Both the position numbers and the translations under genes were made by a program. Below, in pieces: positions 2,856 through 20,711 of a stretch of DNA of 23,036 nucleotides (its first letter is position 1; each line of letters opens with the position of its first letter). This DNA comes from a virus. The notes under the pieces were generated by a model. The model saw only the letters and a program-made list of their open reading frames with translations. It was not told the DNA's origin and made no database searches. Where the stretch lies: IMG/VR virus record IMGVR_UViG_3300050821_007121, positions 1 to 23,036 of that record; one strand, 5' to 3'.

Positions 2856-3485
2856 TCATGTCAGCGACGGCAGCATGTATTGAGAGAGCCGGTTTTTCTG
2901 ATCATTGGTCAGCACGAGACCGAACTCGCCGAACCGGAACTGGTAAGGCCCAGCCTGCACCTGCTGCGCCACACCGGCAGGCTTCTCCAGTGCACGCATC
3001 ACCAACTCGTATCCCACCGCCGCGACCGTCGGCGGTATCTGTGAATAGCCGTGCGTGAACGTCACATTCATGCGCGCCTCGTGTTTGCGGTAGGCGTCGA
3101 ACAGCCGCACCGTGTCGAGCGGCCACAGGTCCGCGCTGGTTGGGGTCGGCGCGAACCCGTACGACATGGGCAGAAAGCTGATCCAGCCGCGCTCGTCGAA
3201 GGTGTACGCCGTCTCGTCGATCGCCGATGCGCCGGGCCACGGCGGCGACACCTGCACCACTGCGGTCAAATGCCGTGTGGGCAGCAGGATCGTGCCGTCA
3301 CCGCTCAGGTAGCACAGCCGGGTGGTGGTCAGCGACGGGAACAGGTGCCAGCCGAGGTATTGGCGGATGCGGTCACCTGCTGCGGCGAGGAAGTAGTCGG
3401 TGTCCAGGCTGGCGAACGTGCCGTAATCGTCGTCGCTGAGGAGCGCCGGCACCGGGTCGTTTTCACCGGGAAACGGTGTGCTCAT
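2856..3485 (-). CDS. Head-to-tail adaptor
   Basis: A 209-aa protein starting with ATG at 3485 in an ATGA overlap with a tiny upstream ORF. Adaptors of the HK97 gp6/SPP1 gp15 type form the ring that attaches below the portal. The N-terminus is typical: LLSDDDYGTFASLDTDYFLA, then DRIRQYLGWHLFP, an early helix bundle with the aromatic-rich 'YLGWHLFPS' segment. A middle strand region with FDERGWISFLPMSYGF follows, and a C-terminal helix (VGYELVMRALEK) leads into FRFGEFGLVLTNDQKNRLSQ. It follows the capsid block and precedes the stopper, as expected. Confidence 0.75.
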   Translation of the reverse strand: MSTPFPGENDPVPALLSDDDYGTFASLDTDYFLAAAGDRIRQYLGWHLFPSLTTTRLCYLSGDGTILLPTRHLTAVVQVSPPWPGASAIDETAYTFDERGWISFLPMSYGFAPTPTSADLWPLDTVRLFDAYRKHEARMNVTFTHGYSQIPPTVAAVGYELVMRALEKPAGVAQQVQAGPYQFRFGEFGLVLTNDQKNRLSQYMLPSLT

Positions 3486-3550
3486 GTGCTTTTGTTTGAC
3501 GTCACTTCCACTTCGATGCCGACGCGTTGAAAAGCGAACGGCGGGATCAC
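3482..3550 (-). CDS. Possible 22-aa tiling ORF
   Basis: A tiny ORF, GTG at 3550 to TGA at 3482, encoding MIPPFAFQRVGIEVEVTSNK plus two residues. Its start overlaps the stop of the 52-aa gene as GTGA and its stop overlaps the adaptor start as ATGA, so it fills the gap with no spare base. It may be translated by re-initiation, and may serve mainly to couple translation of the adaptor. No domain can be recognised. Without conservation data it remains a candidate. Confidence 0.4.
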   Translation of the reverse strand: MIPPFAFQRVGIEVEVTSNKST

Positions 3551-3705
3551 AGGTAGTAGCAGGGAACCGGCATGTTGACGGTGGCGATCTCGTGGTCGTT
3601 GATGATCGTTGTCACCGGGCGGATCACGTACGCCGGCATGCCGGCCGCCGCGTTCGGTAGTGACGGGTCATAGAACGGTGGCCAGTAGCCGAACCCTGAG
3701 TCCAT
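3547..3705 (-). CDS. Small protein of unknown function (52 aa)
   Basis: A 52-aa ORF, ATG at 3705 with the ribosome binding site AAGGGA six bases upstream, ending with TGA at 3547. The sequence starts MDSGFGYWPPFYDPSLPNAA, a short aromatic and proline-rich lead, and continues into strand-like MPAYVIRPVTTIINDHEIAT. It ends PVPCYYL. It lies between a strong stem-loop and the adaptor gene. I do not recognise the family; its place in the capsid-connector block suggests a structural or assembly role, which is inference. Confidence 0.65.
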   Translation of the reverse strand: MDSGFGYWPPFYDPSLPNAAAGMPAYVIRPVTTIINDHEIATVNMPVPCYYL

Positions 3706-3734
3706 TGCAATCCCTTATCGTGAACGCGCTTGGA

Positions 3735-3782
3735 GTGTGGCCGGGGCACCGATCCGAGGCGTAGCGGCACCCCGGGCCACAC
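3735..3782 (-). terminator. Long stem-loop after the 77-aa gene
   Basis: On the minus-strand transcript GUGUGGCC-C-GGGGUGCCG (from 3782) pairs with CGGUGCCCC-GGCCACAC (ending 3735). This gives about 17 pairs with one bulged base and a 13-nt loop. Two of the pairs are G-U wobbles in this RNA, but would be C-A mismatches in the opposite strand, so the fold is best on the coding-strand transcript. It begins three bases after the TAG of the 77-aa gene. No U-tract follows, so it may act as a partial terminator, a processing site or a 3'-end stabiliser. Confidence 0.7.
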
Positions 3783-3784
3783 GT

Positions 3785-4018
3785 CTAGTCGGGCTCGGAT
3801 GCGGTGAACACGAGCCTGGTCGCCGCAATGCCAGCTTGCTCGCGGCGGCATTCCCAACCGGTGATCGGCAGCTGCAGCACCTTCTCACCGCCGATGGTGA
3901 TCTCGATTTCGAGCGGGCCGGGCCAGTCGCGCATGTTCGTGTCGTAGTGCAGCGCGCCGCCGCAGCCGAGGCGGCCGAGCACCTTGCCCAGCAGCCCGCT
4001 GTTGGTGTTATCGATCAT
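3785..4018 (-). CDS. Small protein after the capsid gene (77 aa)
   Basis: A 77-aa protein, ATG at 4018 with AAGGGAC just upstream, ending with TAG at 3785. It contains LLGKVLGRLGCGGALHYDTN in the first third, then a strand-rich part PLEIEITIGGEKVLQLPITG and a C-terminal RLVFTASEPD. The gene is first after the major capsid gene and is enclosed by two strong stem-loops (4044-4081 and 3735-3782), so its mRNA level may be set separately from its neighbours. A capsid decoration or minor head role is possible but unproven; I do not recognise the family. Confidence 0.7.
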   Translation of the reverse strand: MIDNTNSGLLGKVLGRLGCGGALHYDTNMRDWPGPLEIEITIGGEKVLQLPITGWECRREQAGIAATRLVFTASEPD

Positions 4019-4043
4019 GTCCCTTCTCGGGGTATGGAGGGCG

Positions 4044-4081
4044 GGCCGGGTCGCCGCCCGGTTGGCATGGGCGACCCGGCC
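4044..4081. terminator. Perfect 12-bp inverted repeat after the capsid gene
   Basis: GGCCGGGTCGCC at 4044-4055 is the exact reverse complement of GGCGACCCGGCC at 4070-4081, with a 14-nt loop. It lies in the 98-nt gap between the stop of the major capsid gene (4117) and the next start (4018). No U-run follows on the minus strand; mycobacterial terminators often lack one. It probably limits read-through or stabilises the capsid mRNA. Confidence 0.75.
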
Positions 4082-4116
4082 GCACCGTTAGGGGGGGATC
4101 AATCAGGTTGCAGCGC

Positions 4117-5625
4117 TTAGCTGCTCCAGGCACCGCTGGTGGTGATAACACCCAGCTCGAACAGGTACGGACGTTCGATCAGCAGCCCCACGCGGGCCTC
4201 CGCTCGCGCGGTCCACATGTTCTGCTCGAAATCCGTGCCATTCAAGTTGGTCACGTCCACCCGTAGGCCCGCAATCCGCAAAACGCTTCCCGCGTCGGCG
4301 AAGTCACCGACGAGGATCAGCCCGGCCGGCATCACCGGCGTGCTGACCAGCTTTTTGCCCCACAGGCCGAACGTGTCGACACCGCCCGCAGTGAGCTGGC
4401 CCTGATCGTTCGGGTAGCCGTAGTCGCGACCCCAGAACGACCCGCCGAAGTACTGCCCGTTTTTGTCGGTCGCCAGCCGCAGCGTCAGGTAGTCCATCGG
4501 ATTGACGACGACCGCATCTGGCTCAAAGAACGTCAGCGTGCGGATGTCGACCAGCATGTTGAGGATCCCGATCGCGATGTCGTTACCGGTGGGGGCGTTG
4601 CCCGCCCCGGCCGCGGCCACGATCGACCGGCCCGGCGTCACCGACGACACCAGCTCCGAGCTGCCCATACCGGCGCCGAACGGGCCACCGATAGACGGCG
4701 GGATCGGCACGTTGGACACCGCGCTCACGGTCTGCGGCGCGGTGAAGCTTGCGCTTCGTCCGAGCAGCCCGTTGATGCCGGGATACCCCGTGCCGGCCAG
4801 CAGTTCGACCTCGGTGCGGCGCTGCACACCCATGACGAGCCTGCGCTGGAACAGCGCCCACACGTATGCCGCGTCCTGGATCATTTCGTCGGTGGTGCGT
4901 TCCAGGTTCGCGATTTTGCCGACCTGTTCGGTGTAACGCGTCAAGCCGTGCGCGGAGGTCGGCTTGGTCGCGCCTTCACCGGTGGCCGCTGCGGCGTTGG
5001 TCCACGACGTTTCAGCCACGTACGTGACGACCGGCGAACTGACCGGCAGCGTCGGGAACAGCGACTCGATCACCGTCGGGAAGAACCGCATTTCGACGAT
5101 GCCCGGCACGAACTCGGGTTCGACTGCCGGACCCGCGGTGCCGGTCAGGAAGTACTGCCCTGCGCTGAGCGCCGACCCGGGGGTGGTGCCGGAGGCGTTC
5201 ACGCCGGTCATGTTCGTCACGCCCTGGTAGGGGCCGATCGGCATGCCGGTCTTCAACGCGATGTCGTCGCGGTCGAAATACGACTTGAGGCCGAAGTTGA
5301 AGCTGGACGAGCAGCGGTCCTTGGTTTTCGGGTTCGCTGCACGCGACATCTTCGAGTACTGCTGGCGGTATTCCCTGACGCCGTCGGGTGGCTGGTCGGG
5401 ATCCTGGGCACCCTCGGCGATGGTGCCGGGGCCGGGGGCCGCGAACTGGTTGGCGCGCTGCTTGTTCTTGAACAGAACGCCGTTGCGTTCGTTCTCCTTT
5501 TCGCAGTGCTCCATTGTCTGGTCGAACTCGGCCTCGGTGATCCGGCCGCTGTTGAAGTCCTCGTAGGCTTTGTTCGCGGCGTCTCGTAGCTCGTTGGCTT
5601 TTTGCCGCAGAGTCTCCTTGTCCAT
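4117..5625 (-). CDS. Major capsid protein, HK97 fold
   Basis: A 502-aa protein that builds the phage head shell. Residues 1-60 form a charged helical region (ETLRQKANELRDAANKAYED) like the N-terminal delta domain of HK97 gp5, which serves as scaffold and is normally cut off by the head protease. The region after about residue 120 is the shell domain, with MPIGPYQGVTNMTGVNASGT, a long stretch RTTDEMIQDAAYVWALFQRR typical of the spine helix, and PDAVVVNPMDYLTLRLATDK leading into a C-terminal part with GVDTFGLWGKKLVSTPVMPA. The start is ATG at 5625; a GTG at 5628 directly precedes it. The protease gene lies upstream, as expected. A fragment similar to residues 127-170 occurs upstream at 5798-5959. 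Confidence 0.92.
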   Translation of the reverse strand: MDKETLRQKANELRDAANKAYEDFNSGRITEAEFDQTMEHCEKENERNGVLFKNKQRANQFAAPGPGTIAEGAQDPDQPPDGVREYRQQYSKMSRAANPKTKDRCSSSFNFGLKSYFDRDDIALKTGMPIGPYQGVTNMTGVNASGTTPGSALSAGQYFLTGTAGPAVEPEFVPGIVEMRFFPTVIESLFPTLPVSSPVVTYVAETSWTNAAAATGEGATKPTSAHGLTRYTEQVGKIANLERTTDEMIQDAAYVWALFQRRLVMGVQRRTEVELLAGTGYPGINGLLGRSASFTAPQTVSAVSNVPIPPSIGGPFGAGMGSSELVSSVTPGRSIVAAAGAGNAPTGNDIAIGILNMLVDIRTLTFFEPDAVVVNPMDYLTLRLATDKNGQYFGGSFWGRDYGYPNDQGQLTAGGVDTFGLWGKKLVSTPVMPAGLILVGDFADAGSVLRIAGLRVDVTNLNGTDFEQNMWTARAEARVGLLIERPYLFELGVITTSGAWSS

Positions 5626-5797
5626 CACTAAATCCGTTCTGTGTCAAAGGTTTTAGAATGTTTTTGCGCACGCCAAAGGCGCGCAGGGCTGCCACGGGGG
5701 TCGGCGGGTGTGGCGGCGGCGGCGGCCCCTCGTTGGGGCGGCGGCGGCGGTCGCACCGGTGGACGGCGGCAACGACTGTGGGGGTGACCCGGTGGGT
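5626..5797 (-). other. Gap before the capsid gene, GGC-rich, no gene
   Basis: About 170 nt with no convincing ORF. Much of it (5710-5760) consists of GGC triplets on the plus strand, interrupted by GCCCC-TCGTT-GGGGC, a 5-bp inverted repeat that could form a small hairpin. The last part before the capsid start is less GC-rich. TTGACA occurs on the minus strand near 5645, but I see no matching TANNNT box at the right distance, so a promoter is not claimed. Confidence 0.5.
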
Positions 5798-5959
5798 CTA
5801 GACGGCTCCGGGTGCAATAGCTGGACCGGCGGTGCCGGTCAGGAAATATTGGCCGGGTTCCAGCGATGATCCGGGGCTGGTTCCGGTGGCGTTTTCACCG
5901 GACAGTTCCTCGACGCCTTGGTAGGGGCCGACGGGTCTGCCCGGTAGTGCGTCGGTCAG
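5798..5959 (-). pseudogene. Diverged fragment of a major capsid protein
   Basis: On the minus strand, immediately after the protease stop, a frame encodes LTDALPGRPVGPYQGVEELS and continues with SSLEPGQYFLTGTAGPAIAP to a TAG at 5798. Over 44 residues, 30 are identical to the segment of the complete capsid protein encoded at 5116-5247 (GMPIGPYQGV ... GQYFLTGTAGPAVEP), with similar residues at several other places and no gap. There is no ATG, GTG or TTG start in this frame. A CTG overlaps the protease TGA as CTGA, so translation would need that start or a frameshift from the protease. Probably a remnant of another phage's capsid gene left by recombination, or of an old duplication. Confidence 0.8.
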
Positions 5960-7422
5960 GACGCGGCCTCGTTTTCGGTGATGCCGGTGTCGAACCGGAA
6001 CCTGCGCAGCCGCGCGGCGCGGGCCGCGACATCTCCGGGTGTGACGGCGGCGGCATCCTTCGCAACGTCCTTTGTGGCGTCCTTGGCGGGGGCGGCCGGG
6101 GCACCGGTTGGCGGGGCTTCCGCGCCACCATCGCCGCCAGCAGCGGTCACGGCCACTGCGGCGGTGACGCCCGCAGCCTCTTCGGTTTCGCCGTCGGGCT
6201 TAGCGGTCAGCGATTCGAGCTGGCCATGGCCGACGACGGTGTCCTTGTGGCGCAGCGTGTACATCTCAGAACCCGGCGGCCCGGCGACGGTGATGCTGTA
6301 ACCGTCGAAGCCTTGAACCGCTGGGCGAACCGGCACGACGATCGCGGCACCCTCGGCGCTCTTGGTGATGGCCGATTCCTCGCTGGCACACGAGGCACCG
6401 AGCGACACCGCAGCGTCATGCAGCGCCTGCGTGAGACCGCCCGGTGCCCCGGCCTCGTCTGCGGCATCCTCGTCGTCCTCGTCTTCGTCTTGGCCTTCGC
6501 CGTCCTCGTCGTAGACGCTGCTGGCACCGAGATCCTCGCCAGTAGGCGTATGGCCGGGCATGGTCTGCGAGGCGTCCTTGAAAGTGACCGCCTTGCACAG
6601 CGCCCAGGCCAACGTCTTCTCGTCCGAGTCGCTGACATCGACACCGAGCCGGCGCGCGGCGCTGCGGATGCGGCCAAGGATGGCGCTGCGCTGGCTGGCC
6701 GTGTAGCTGGCGTCACCGGCGTTCTGTGAGAACCGTGCCAGCGCGTTACGCACGTGCGGGGCGTCGTCGATCTGGTAGCGCGGGACGCCGTTTCCGCTCT
6801 TGGCTGGCTGGCCCTTCCGGTCGAGGTAGCCGGGGTCTGCGTGACGGCTTCCCGCGGTCAGCGGTGCCGCCGTCTTCGAGTTGACCGCCATAGAGTCCTC
6901 CTGTTGATCGCTGTCGCCGTCGGCGTCTACGGATTTCGAACTGAGCACCACGGCCTTCGGGTTGGCGGGGACGCCGGTGAACGTGCCGTTGAGGATTTCG
7001 CGCACCACCCTGCCGTCGTCGAGCACACGTTCCTGGTAGGAGACGCTGGCCTGCCATATGTGTTTGCCGTTGACGAGTTTTCGGGTCAGCTGCCCGTGCG
7101 GGGTACCGGCGTAGACGCCTTTCACGAGAATCTCGCCGTTCTCGGTGAGTTCGGGAACGCCACTACCGGCGGTGTACGGGACGCTCAACCCCTTCTTGAA
7201 GGCGTGGTCGGTGTCGAAATGGACCCGGTCCGGCAACGGGTCCATCCACTCGTCAGCCCACAGGTTTTCGTCGTCGCGGTCCAGGTTGTCCGTGCTGAGT
7301 AGCAGCTTGAACTCGCCGTCGGGATGCTCGCTGTCGACCGGCTCGATAGTCGCTTGGATGGCTTTCACGCGCACACCGGAATCGCCGTCCAGCTCCAAAC
7401 CCGCGTAGGTGACCTCGTCCAT
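5956..7422 (-). CDS. Capsid maturation protease with DUF6582-like and scaffold-like regions
   Basis: A 488-aa protein that should cleave head proteins during maturation. The N-terminal 165 residues are HK97-prohead-protease-like: DRVHFDTDHAFKKG (candidate catalytic His69 or His73), HIWQASVSYQ (candidate Ser126) and GTFTGVPANPKAVVL. Residues 190-268 (RHADPGYLDRKGQ, APHVRNALARFSQ, ILGRIRSAARRLGV) resemble DUF6582. A stretch at 304-322 (YDEDGEGQDEDEDDEDAAD) is extremely acidic, and the C-terminus is Ala/Pro/Lys-rich. No separate scaffold gene exists between protease and capsid, so this tail may serve as scaffold (inference). Start: ATG at 7422 has AGGAG eight bases upstream; an ATG at 7482 overlaps the upstream stop but adds an atypical 20-residue leader. 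Confidence 0.85.
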   Translation of the reverse strand: MDEVTYAGLELDGDSGVRVKAIQATIEPVDSEHPDGEFKLLLSTDNLDRDDENLWADEWMDPLPDRVHFDTDHAFKKGLSVPYTAGSGVPELTENGEILVKGVYAGTPHGQLTRKLVNGKHIWQASVSYQERVLDDGRVVREILNGTFTGVPANPKAVVLSSKSVDADGDSDQQEDSMAVNSKTAAPLTAGSRHADPGYLDRKGQPAKSGNGVPRYQIDDAPHVRNALARFSQNAGDASYTASQRSAILGRIRSAARRLGVDVSDSDEKTLAWALCKAVTFKDASQTMPGHTPTGEDLGASSVYDEDGEGQDEDEDDEDAADEAGAPGGLTQALHDAAVSLGASCASEESAITKSAEGAAIVVPVRPAVQGFDGYSITVAGPPGSEMYTLRHKDTVVGHGQLESLTAKPDGETEEAAGVTAAVAVTAAGGDGGAEAPPTGAPAAPAKDATKDVAKDAAAVTPGDVAARAARLRRFRFDTGITENEAAS

Positions 7423-7478
7423 TGATCTGCTCCTAGCTTCGGGGACGTTGCCGTACATCCCAACGGACCCAGCGCATT

Positions 7479-7718
7479 TCATCTCCTGGTTAGGGCTTCG
7501 TCGGGTGCGTAATCATTGCCGCGTTGACCGGCCATCGCAGGCAGCACTTCCACGGTGTCTCCGGGTTCACAATCCCCCGACAACTGCATCCACGCCTCGT
7601 CCCACGACTTGTAACGCATCCAGTCATTGGATGGCCAGTCGCTGCTGAAGATGATGGCGTCGCCTTCCCCGCCATCGCCGGGCATGTCGGGCCATTCCTG
7701 AACGCGGTAATGCGTCAC
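7479..7718 (-). CDS. Small acidic protein of unknown function
   Basis: A 79-aa protein, GTG at 7718, one base after the stop of the upstream gene. It is acidic and rich in Trp: HYRVQEWPDMPGDGGEGDAI, then SDWPSNDWMRYKSWDEAWMQ, then DCEPGDTVEVLPAM. No membrane segment or known motif is seen. It is one of three small genes between portal and protease, which probably travel with the head operon. The function is unknown. Confidence 0.7.
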   Translation of the reverse strand: MTHYRVQEWPDMPGDGGEGDAIIFSSDWPSNDWMRYKSWDEAWMQLSGDCEPGDTVEVLPAMAGQRGNDYAPDEALTRR

Positions 7719-14323: not shown

Positions 14324-14638
14324 TCACCATGCGGCCCGCACCCACTTGCCGTGGGCTTGCGGTGCTGGGCTGGACGGCTTGGCTTGGCGTGAGCGGTTGC
14401 AGGACACGTGTGAGGGTGCCCAGTTCGCTAGGACGTACGCCAGGTGCGGGTGGGTGGACAGCGGCAGCACGTGGTCGAGTTCGAACGCGCGGCTGGTTTG
14501 TGGCTCCGCGTAGTAATCGATGGGGCCTAGTTCACCGTGGCAGATGTGGCAGGCGGCGTTGACCGCCTTGCACCTGGCCTTGAACTGGGCACGTTGTTTC
14601 TTGTAGAGGTGGGTGTTGCGTGGCGGGAGGGGTGACAT
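14324..14638 (-). CDS. HNH endonuclease
   Basis: A 104-aa protein, ATG at 14638. A zinc-binding CHICH motif at residues 30-34 is followed by FELDHVLPLSTHPHLAYVLA, with the catalytic His56 in LDH, then NWAPSHVSCNRSRQ with Asn72, His77 and Cys80. This is the beta-beta-alpha-metal HNH fold in its usual order. HNH proteins of this size are frequently encoded beside the terminase genes in HK97-like phages, where they assist the terminase in cutting at the packaging site. Here it lies upstream of the small terminase, across the gene-poor region. No good ribosome binding site precedes the ATG. Confidence 0.88.
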   Translation of the reverse strand: MSPLPPRNTHLYKKQRAQFKARCKAVNAACHICHGELGPIDYYAEPQTSRAFELDHVLPLSTHPHLAYVLANWAPSHVSCNRSRQAKPSSPAPQAHGKWVRAAW

Positions 14639-14965: not shown

Positions 14966-15157
14966 TTAGTACCAGTACCGTCGGCCGCCGAGTGAGCGTC
15001 CGGTGAATGTGCTGTAGAAGAACATGATTAGTCCGACGACGAGGAAGATCCAGCCCAGTACGACGGATAGGTGGTCTAGTGGTGGGGGGATATTGGGTAC
15101 CAGGTCTGGTAATAGCCAATATCCGAGGACGAGCAGCACGACGCCTAGGATTATCAT
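14966..15157 (-). CDS. DUF6131-like hydrophobic protein
   Basis: A 63-aa membrane protein, ATG at 15157 in an ATGA overlap with the glycosyltransferase gene upstream. It has two hydrophobic helices, MIILGVVLLVLGYWLL (residues 1-16) and HLSVVLGWIFLVVGLIMFFY (about 29-48), then STFTGRSLGGRRYWY. Two helices, the MIILG start and the terminal G-R-R-aromatic motif match the DUF6131 family found widely in actinobacteria and their phages. Its function is unknown. Confidence 0.75.
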   Translation of the reverse strand: MIILGVVLLVLGYWLLPDLVPNIPPPLDHLSVVLGWIFLVVGLIMFFYSTFTGRSLGGRRYWY

Positions 15158-16032
15158 TGCGATCTTTCTTTTACGGCGAGGTATTCGTGGCTGATTTCGG
15201 CGTAGCGCTCTCGCCAGGGCGGTTCGAGGCAATCGGTGCCGGCCTTATGCTGCGGGTCGTAGGACAGGTGCGCGGCGAGGAAGCCTTGGCATATGCGGCG
15301 GGGCAATATGTTCACCGCGCCCTCGTCTCCAACTGGCTGCGTCGTCGTCCCTTCGGGTATCTCCGGTCCTACAGAGTCGAACGCTCCGTGCTGGGGTTTC
15401 GTGTTGAGAAGGTGGAATATTCGGGATGCCATCTGCCAGTTGTAGCCAATTACGTTGATGGATAGCCAGCTTTGGGGTTCTATCAGTTCCACGGGTTGGT
15501 TTAATAGTTCGCGCCAATGTTGGAACATGAAGTTGTGGCTCATGTCTGCGTATTCCGGGCATTTGTAGACGTCGCGCAGTGACACTGGCAGTGTGGTGGC
15601 CAGTTTTTCGAAGCGGCGCCAGATGCCTGGTTCGGTTGCTGTGCATGCGCCGTTGTTGATGACCTTGGCGCTAACGATGTGGTCGGGGTTGGCCTCGATG
15701 GCGGCTACGAATTTTGTCCAGCTGTCGGTTTCGAGGAATACGATGTCGTCGTCGATTTTGACGAGCAGGTGATCTTGAAACCACGGCATTGTGTAGTGGT
15801 GATAGATGCGGTTAAAGGCTTTCCAGGGTTCTTTGCTGCTGTAGAACCAGTTGTTGACCCATATCCGTTCGCCGCTGATGGTTTTCAGGTATTGGTAGTC
15901 GTCGTCGTTGCGGGCTGTATTCCAGATATGGTATTCAACGTCGGAATGCTCGGCTAAAAGCCTTCTGATGTACGGCAGTTGGAGTTCCATGTTGGCTCTG
16001 CGACCCGCGAAGCAGAAGATCGTCGTTATCAT
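15154..16032 (-). CDS. GT-A glycosyltransferase-like protein
   Basis: A 292-aa protein, ATG at 16032 with GGGGAG six bases upstream. The N-terminus MITTIFCFAGRRANMELQLP enters a Rossmann-type first strand, and LLVKIDDDIVFLETDSWTKF (residues 89-108) contains a DDD motif (94-96) that would bind the metal and sugar nucleotide. Later segments such as NFMFQHWRELLNQP and the conserved-looking GDEGAVNILPRRICQGF could form the acceptor side. It is probably a cytoplasmic enzyme transferring a sugar from a nucleotide donor to a phage virion protein or a host glycan. The donor and acceptor cannot be read from the sequence. Confidence 0.7.
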   Translation of the reverse strand: MITTIFCFAGRRANMELQLPYIRRLLAEHSDVEYHIWNTARNDDDYQYLKTISGERIWVNNWFYSSKEPWKAFNRIYHHYTMPWFQDHLLVKIDDDIVFLETDSWTKFVAAIEANPDHIVSAKVINNGACTATEPGIWRRFEKLATTLPVSLRDVYKCPEYADMSHNFMFQHWRELLNQPVELIEPQSWLSINVIGYNWQMASRIFHLLNTKPQHGAFDSVGPEIPEGTTTQPVGDEGAVNILPRRICQGFLAAHLSYDPQHKAGTDCLEPPWRERYAEISHEYLAVKERSQ

Positions 16033-19026: not shown

Positions 19027-19284
19027 TCAAGGTAAGGCTGTCAGCAGGGCGTCTATGCGGTCGGGGCGGTAGCCGCACCAGGATTGTTCGCCTTGGGGGG
19101 TCGCGACGCAGACGACCGGGGCTGCTGTGAATCCTAGTTCCGTTATTGCGGCGAGTGTGCAGCCGTCTTCGTGGATGGGTATTTCGGTGAATGGTATTCC
19201 GCGGCGGGTGAGGTGGCGTTTCGTTTGGGTGCACGCCATGCAGTTGGGGCCGTTGGTGTAGACGTTCACCAATAAGTGGCTCAT
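19027..19284 (-). CDS. nrdH: NrdH-like redoxin
   Basis: An 85-aa thioredoxin-fold protein, ATG at 19284 in an ATGA overlap. VNVYTNGPNCMACTQTKRHL contains the active-site C-M-A-C (residues 15-18), and IPFTEIPIHED, then FTAAPVVCVATPQGEQSWCG with the cis-Pro after A55, complete the glutaredoxin-like pattern. The WCGYRPDRIDAL end matches the W/S-G-F/Y-R-P-D motif of NrdH proteins. NrdH reduces ribonucleotide reductase; no reductase gene lies in the window, so it may act on the host enzyme or on another disulfide protein. Confidence 0.85.
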   Translation of the reverse strand: MSHLLVNVYTNGPNCMACTQTKRHLTRRGIPFTEIPIHEDGCTLAAITELGFTAAPVVCVATPQGEQSWCGYRPDRIDALLTALP

Positions 19285-20711
19285 CGTTTGATGAGTTCCC
19301 GCATGATGCGTGGCCTGCCGCGGGCGAATTCGTAGAGCGCGAAGCGGGCCTTGTTGGGGTTGTTGTCGGTGTAGTCGCGGTCGGGTTGGCCACCGGCGTT
19401 GGTGGCGTGGTTGAAGCTGTAGACGGTGCCCGGAATCCGTTGCACGGTTCCTAGTGTTTCGACGACGTGACGGAAGCTGGTGTCGTCGAATGACATGGCA
19501 CCGGGGGTGAATAGTTCGTCGAATCCGCCGAATCCCCATAGCGTTTCGCGGCGCATGACGAAGATTCCGCCGGGGCTGTCGTGGTAGCGCTGCTGTACCC
19601 GCGCGGTGGTGTAGTCGTCGTCGGTGGCGGCTTCGCCTGGGATGTGCAGGAATTCGGTGTACGGGTAGACGAGGTCGGCGCCGCCGTCGCTGACTATCGC
19701 CAGCGCGGCGTGGATTTGTTCGATGCGTTCGGGGACTGTGTCGGCGTCGGCGATGATCACCAGGTCGGTGTCGGCTTGCCGGGCGGCGTTGTTGCGGGCC
19801 TGCCCGCACAGGAACGGCAGGTCGGTGTCGCTGTCGGCTTCGATGACCGGGTAGCCGTGTCCGGTCCAGTACTTCATGCAGCGGTCGTGCGCGCCGATGC
19901 GTTCCGGTGTCGGCCGCCATGGCACGCACACGGTCGCTGCGGGGTGTTCGCGCTGGTAGGGCACGAAGTCGGTGCTGTCCCGGTATTCCAAGAACAGCCT
20001 CCAGTTGCGTTCGCGGTGTGCGTTGCGGATTTCGGGTGGCACGCAGGACCGTTTGCCGGTGGCGTAGGCGTCGACCGCGTGGAAGCGGCTGTCCCGCAGC
20101 GCGAGGAATGGGTATGTGGTGCCGAGCGCGTTGTGGATGCGGTAGGAGTATTCCCAGGTTTCGGCTGACCAGCGGCCGAACTGTTCGCGTAGTCCGCCTA
20201 CGCGTTCGACGACGTCGCGGTGCAGGTAGTAGACGACGCCGGCCGCCCATTTCGGGGCGAATACCTCGTGGTCTTGGTAGAGCGGTGCAACGTCGGCGAC
20301 GCAGTGGGTGCAGTCGAAGCGGCCCTCGATGGTGTTGTAGATGTGCCAGCGTTGTGTGCGGCAGATGGGGCACATCTGCATGGTGTTGGGCTGGTGCAGC
20401 AGGTGTGGGTGGCGGGATTCGGTGTAGGGGCGCCACCAGTCGGGTGCGTTGGGGTGGACGTCGTCGTCGGAGAGGAACAGGTGCTCGACACCGGCGTCCA
20501 TGAGGAGCGCGATGGAGGCGTTTTTGGCGGCGGCGATACCTTGGGGTGTCGGGTTGCGGTGCTGTGCGCCGGGCGCTGGTTGTTCGGAGCCGTCGTCTAC
20601 CACCAGGATCGGGATGTCGGGTGGGGTGTGGCGGCGGTAGGCGCGCATGGTCTGGTCGAACAGTTGGCGCCGGTTGAGGGTGGTGATGGCGACACCGAAC
20701 AGCGGTGTCAT
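19281..20711 (-). CDS. Tandem GT-A glycosyltransferase-like protein
   Basis: A 476-aa protein, ATG at 20711, four bases after the 58-aa gene. It carries two GT-A type modules. The first (1-255) has MTPLFGVAITTLNRRQLFDQ, ILVVDDGSE and LFLSDDDVHPNAPDWW (DDD at 82-84). The second (259-476) has VCVPWRPTPERIGAHDR, FLCGQARNNAARQADTDLVI, the IIADADTVP motif (DAD at 322-324) and WGFGGFDELFTPGAMSFDDT, like the C-terminal motif of GalNAc-transferase-type enzymes. CPIC (114-117) and CTHC (134-137) form a possible zinc ribbon inside the first module. It may add two different sugars in sequence, or be a bifunctional polymerising enzyme; the substrates are unknown. Confidence 0.8.
   Translation of the reverse strand: MTPLFGVAITTLNRRQLFDQTMRAYRRHTPPDIPILVVDDGSEQPAPGAQHRNPTPQGIAAAKNASIALLMDAGVEHLFLSDDDVHPNAPDWWRPYTESRHPHLLHQPNTMQMCPICRTQRWHIYNTIEGRFDCTHCVADVAPLYQDHEVFAPKWAAGVVYYLHRDVVERVGGLREQFGRWSAETWEYSYRIHNALGTTYPFLALRDSRFHAVDAYATGKRSCVPPEIRNAHRERNWRLFLEYRDSTDFVPYQREHPAATVCVPWRPTPERIGAHDRCMKYWTGHGYPVIEADSDTDLPFLCGQARNNAARQADTDLVIIADADTVPERIEQIHAALAIVSDGGADLVYPYTEFLHIPGEAATDDDYTTARVQQRYHDSPGGIFVMRRETLWGFGGFDELFTPGAMSFDDTSFRHVVETLGTVQRIPGTVYSFNHATNAGGQPDRDYTDNNPNKARFALYEFARGRPRIMRELIKR

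Follow-up and report, generated by a model that had tools for sequence, protein, structure and literature searches.

What is a second, diverged copy of part of a capsid protein doing between the protease and capsid genes of a phage? The question is raised by a metagenomic IMG/VR virus record, analyzed here as a single stretch of 23,036 bases (the window; features in Table 1). A sequence-only reading had reported 44 minus-strand residues that align without gaps, 30 of them identical, to capsid residues 127-170, in a frame that runs intact to a TAG and lacks a normal start. These observations are borne out. Using tblastn within the window (minus strand 5941-5810) we obtained 30/44 identities, 37/44 positives and zero gaps with E = 7e-20, and E = 2e-19 in a second search, numbering the capsid residues from its ATG. 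The similarity is far above chance; an alignment to capsid no better than chance, which would have made the homology wrong, is not what was found. The earlier span of 5798-5959 needs trimming, as the similarity occupies 5810-5941 and the remainder lies outside the match. With the protease ORF as reference, the segment is read in the -1 frame, which remains open until the TAG at 5800-5798. From the preceding stop, at about 6202, to the segment this frame contains no ATG, GTG or TTG, and the CTG at 5959 is its only start-like codon. A BLAST extension of the capsid match beyond the TAG, as far as capsid residue 190, was unsupported at the DNA level and was discarded.

Table 1. Coordinates of features around the capsid-like segment in the window
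Feature	Position	Strand	Basis or remark
Major capsid protein (502 aa); its family is the source of the segment	4117..5625	-	PF05065, E 2.6e-17; phrog_10
Spacer with apparent remnants of Ala-rich protease linker and tail	5629..5797	-	DNA match to L003 protease tail; matching pieces in different frames
TAG stop ending the segment frame	5798..5800	-	Reading frame
Capsid-like segment, 44 residues	5810..5941	-	30 identical to capsid residues 127-170; 31 identical to in-frame L003 protease segment
CTG, sole start-like codon of the segment frame	5957..5959	-	Overlaps protease TGA (CTGA); GAGG 7 nt upstream
Head maturation protease ORF, 508 aa from first ATG	5956..7482	-	phrog_2753, E 4.5e-22; alignment with L003 and 27 relatives

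The protease upstream of the segment matches the head maturation protease family phrog_2753, as does that of the closest relative described below (E = 8.5e-27); neither protein reaches Pfam S78. The homologous part of the window protease begins at about 7374 and ends at the TGA at 5958-5956. The protein has its own complete C-terminal tail, which aligns with the C terminus of the relative's protease and contains no capsid-like segment. No tRNA or Rfam family was found in the window and a promoter scan found none, while the one terminator-like site lies on the opposite strand at chance level. Elsewhere in the window, a small HNH endonuclease is encoded at 14324-14638 (minus strand), near the terminase end of the late genes, and a glycosyltransferase at 19281-20711 (minus strand) apparently comprises two glycosyltransferase-like parts (phrog_1579/2456 and phrog_1721).

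Which region of the capsid has been copied? The capsid alignment places one end of the copied stretch at an [LMF]K[TA] motif that hardly varies and precedes QG, and the other at PEF, where the HK97 fold starts. In HK97 itself the cut falls at K103/S104, within a portion of the shell that is flexible (PMC10275583), and in phage D3 the first ~24 residues of the N-arm are flexible, whereby, its authors suggest, the cleavage site is exposed (PMC12749128). On the strength of these parallels the copy probably covers the cleavage junction, i.e., the boundary of scaffold domain and N-arm with its conserved K-[T/A/S], together with the N-arm itself. The alignment to HK97 would also permit a cut further downstream inside the segment.

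Comparison with the capsid genes of related phages, which had been proposed as a check on the origin of the segment, led to an intact counterpart. Scanning viral contigs with the window capsid gave as closest relative IMGVR_UViG_3300050821_003885 (L003), whose capsid is 70% identical. Its protease ORF (3738-5405, 555 aa) carries in frame the sequence KTGAPVGPYQGVEGMSGENASGTEPGQPLADGQLFQEGTAGAAIAP. This segment corresponds to protease residues 424-473 and matches the phage's own capsid with E of about 1e-15; the stretch is 57% identical to that capsid over 56 residues and 70% identical to the window segment. A capsid-like segment thus exists inside a maturation protease in an intact gene. It is not a protease-capsid fusion, since both L003 and the window have a separate, complete capsid ORF. 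Among the two copies only that of L003 retains the K-T of the junction (SK-TG); the window segment has lost the K, reading ALPG at this place.

The L003 protease is arranged as catalytic domain, DUF6582, acidic stretch, small beta domain, capsid-like segment, Ala-rich linker and C-terminal helix. A fold search with the predicted model gave the T4 gp21 protease (5jbl) at probability 1.00, but with E of only 0.016 and a TM score of 0.52 to the target, the herpesvirus protease scoring lower. The segment falls within a stretch of low pLDDT, residues 419-513, and is thus predicted to lie in a disordered linker, preceded by the small beta domain and followed by the C-terminal helix.

DUF6582 (PF20223; function unknown) is found inside the maturation proteases of the window (residues 235-285 of the ORF at 5956-7482), L003 (3738-5405), the Mycobacterium prophage L042 (3668-4993) and locus L007 (3514-4989); it is absent from most relatives, e.g., L004, and has the look of a mobile accessory domain. 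The L007 protease is also fused at its N terminus to a VG15 domain (PF25310, E = 1e-13). Homologous glycosyltransferases (phrog_4447; 40% identical) are encoded in the window at 15154-16032 (minus strand) and in L003 at 2929-3771 (plus strand). Their placement differs: the L003 gene directly precedes the protease, and the window gene lies ~10 kb past the protease-capsid region.

How widespread is such a segment? Capsid-based scans yielded 37 viral loci and the one Mycobacterium prophage, to which the cluster E phage Toto (L005) was added. A second copy was sought in each locus in two ways, by BLAST with the capsid of that locus and with an N-arm profile; some of the loci were short and three had no visible protease ORF. 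Among these loci a convincing second copy was present only in the window (E = 2e-12) and L003 (E = 7e-11), the next match having E = 7. No capsid-like segment was seen in the proteases of 30 Mycobacterium prophage loci, which had short flanks, or of eight annotated phages including Toto, and in 50,697 annotated phages neither the segment nor the L003 protease stretch had a tblastn match. Viral contig scans with the window and L003 proteases returned nothing further, and those aimed at the segment recovered no more than L003 and an ordinary relative. The GMPxGPY insert that follows the K-[T/S] position occurs, among the surveyed capsids, only in those of the window and L003. Literature searches turned up no description of a maturation protease that is separate from the capsid and contains a capsid-like segment. 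The intact segment in the related protease is the more interesting find, with one intact gene known so far.

The spacer between the segment and the capsid gene (5797-5629) bears on where the window copy came from. At the DNA level it is colinear with the protease linker of L003, scoring 48 where the null mean is 22.5 (p = 0.0005, order-2 Markov controls), with p = 0.006-0.015 under other scoring schemes; given the low complexity of the linker, p values in the range 0.0005-0.015 count as moderate evidence. One of 8,116 control windows scored as high, rising to 36 of 8,116 in a gap-tolerant scheme. Comparison with the tail of the window's own protease gave p = 0.006 for protein and p = 0.01-0.02 for DNA. 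The likeness to the L003 tail was significant in the DNA comparison alone, the protein comparison giving p = 0.30, and the spacer went unrecognized by a profile built from the C-terminal tails of the family. It has no resemblance to capsid sequence (p = 0.13-0.42). Because the tail-like pieces of the spacer sit in different frames, frame-breaking indels are likely. The window thus seems to hold two protease tails, one in frame without the segment and one broken with it. The last ~40 bases before the capsid start (within 5629-5700) are markedly AT-rich for this phage and are preceded by an inverted repeat rich in GC (GCGCGCCTTTGGCGTGCGC, minus strand); this stretch may have a part in regulating the capsid gene.

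We also analyzed the history of the two segments and the selection acting on them. With protein data the two protease segments cluster together (bootstrap 90). Selection was assessed by simulation, matched to the synonymous divergence from each phage's own capsid and assuming origin from that capsid. On this basis the nonsynonymous differences observed in the two segments, 18.3 and 25.2, fall below the neutral expectations of 33.6 and 44.9, and none of 400 simulations was as low. Neutral evolution is therefore rejected for both segments; the fitted omega is about 0.3-0.5, between the value for capsid (0.15) and neutrality. This result replaces a hand count that had put the branch omega of the window copy at about 0.75. 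The constraint supports a function as protein during much of the history of both segments. Current use of the window copy is not proven by constraint: the copy may have fallen out of use only lately, and some of the constraint could date from a time inside a capsid gene. The window copy has some signs of a pseudogene (no normal start, the TAG and apparent frame changes), yet its omega is 0.3-0.5 and not 1; any decay is therefore recent on that scale.

Since the segment stands in frame within the L003 protease, and the spacer resembles the protease linker and not capsid, the region 5958-5629 is most likely a decayed second C-terminal tail of a protease, and not the remnant of a capsid gene. Recombination would have joined a segment-free protease to the tail of a segment-carrying one, and the order in the window would fit such an event: a protease with its own tail and stop, followed by segment, linker and tail remnants. 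Of the earlier suggestion, that recombination or duplication had left a remnant here, the capsid homology and the remnant find support; what changes is the likely source, a segment-carrying protease in place of a capsid gene. The window copy is probably no longer part of a usable gene. In its intact form the segment might provide a substrate-like internal site at which the protease cuts itself after prohead assembly, and/or an N-arm-like handle by which it docks on capsid subunits in the prohead. Self-processing of a prohead protease is known for gp245 of SPN3US (PMC7411985). Taken jointly, a decayed protease tail brought in by recombination and a substrate-like or docking role for the intact form make the best explanation, to which we give slightly better than even chances. 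Counting against it are the single intact example, the low complexity of the linker, the highest DNA identity being to the window's own capsid, and the loss of the K. We advance more tentatively, as a possible but doubtful proposal, that this phage lineage builds a copy of the capsid cleavage junction and N-arm into its maturation protease. The enzyme would then dock in the manner of a capsid subunit and, on cutting the substrate copy within itself, be released or switched off; the window would have a broken or alternatively expressed version.

Could the segment instead be the remnant of a capsid gene, either the phage's own after partial duplication or that of another phage, left between protease and capsid, with L003 an independent duplication? 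In DNA identity (96/132) and in synonymous similarity the window segment is indeed closest to the capsid of its own phage, and an AU test does not reject the origin of each segment from its own capsid (p = 0.17). The GC3 of the segment, 0.64 against 0.81-0.86 in the window protease and capsid, is as expected for imported DNA. But what follows the segment looks like protease linker and not capsid, the same capsid stretch would have had to be duplicated twice, independently, into or beside a protease, and V4 and E11 are common to both segments and present in neither capsid. We think this origin unlikely. An assembly chimera, in which the protease of one phage was joined to the protease tail and capsid of another, would suit a metagenomic record and a junction that falls where two protease types would differ; no shared repeat is seen at that junction, however, and an intact donor tail would be free of the TAG and the frame changes, making such an artifact very improbable.

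The remaining alternative is that the segment is expressed now, either fused to the protease by a -1 frameshift or on its own, as a peptide of ~53 residues that begins at the CTG. The sequence-only reading had named the former as a more exciting alternative, a capsid-mimicking tail of the protease. Such a segment does occur in frame in L003, but the proposed mechanism finds no support in the window: the 82-codon overlap, although open in the -1 frame, as is the segment, contains no slippery heptamer X XXY YYZ, the C terminus of the protease is already complete, and the tail-like sequence is apparently spread over frames. An open -1 frame is in any case expected in GC-rich DNA. The CTG, with its CTGA overlap and the GAGG, is the best remaining candidate route of expression and a minor rival. 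CTG starts are rare. Rejection of neutral evolution would agree with expression, but the junction K-T has been lost and GC3 is low for this phage. We regard present expression as quite improbable.

Returning to the explanation we prefer, a decayed tail from a segment-carrying protease, its interest extends beyond this locus. How maturation proteases enter the prohead and are later shut off is incompletely known, and a protease carrying a copy of the presumed capsid cut region would make targeting and self-processing directly testable. The case also shows that short pieces of capsid can spread into neighboring genes in mosaic phages.

These phages may be compared with three known systems. With HK97-type gp4/gp5 and the mycobacteriophage cluster E relatives (phrog_2753) they share the portal-protease-capsid order, the N-terminal scaffold domain of the capsid and the protease family, and K103/S104 of HK97 is comparable with the conserved K-[T/A/S] junction. 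They differ in the capsid-like segment, in frame in L003 and out of frame in the window, which is unseen in the proteases of Toto and the other phages tested. Fusions of prohead protease and major capsid protein (NF045541; phrog_4523) likewise place protease and capsid sequence in one polypeptide, whereas here the protease takes in only ~50 capsid residues and is followed by a capsid gene that is separate and complete; given the 57-70% identity to the phage's own capsid, the segment is a younger copy. The proteases of herpesviruses and lambda have a C-terminal part in common with the scaffold protein, produced from nested genes and containing cleavage sites. The likeness lies in a C-terminal part of the protease that is common to an assembly partner and holds cleavage sites; but theirs is scaffold, made through nested genes, while here it is a diverged copy of the scaffold/N-arm junction of the capsid.
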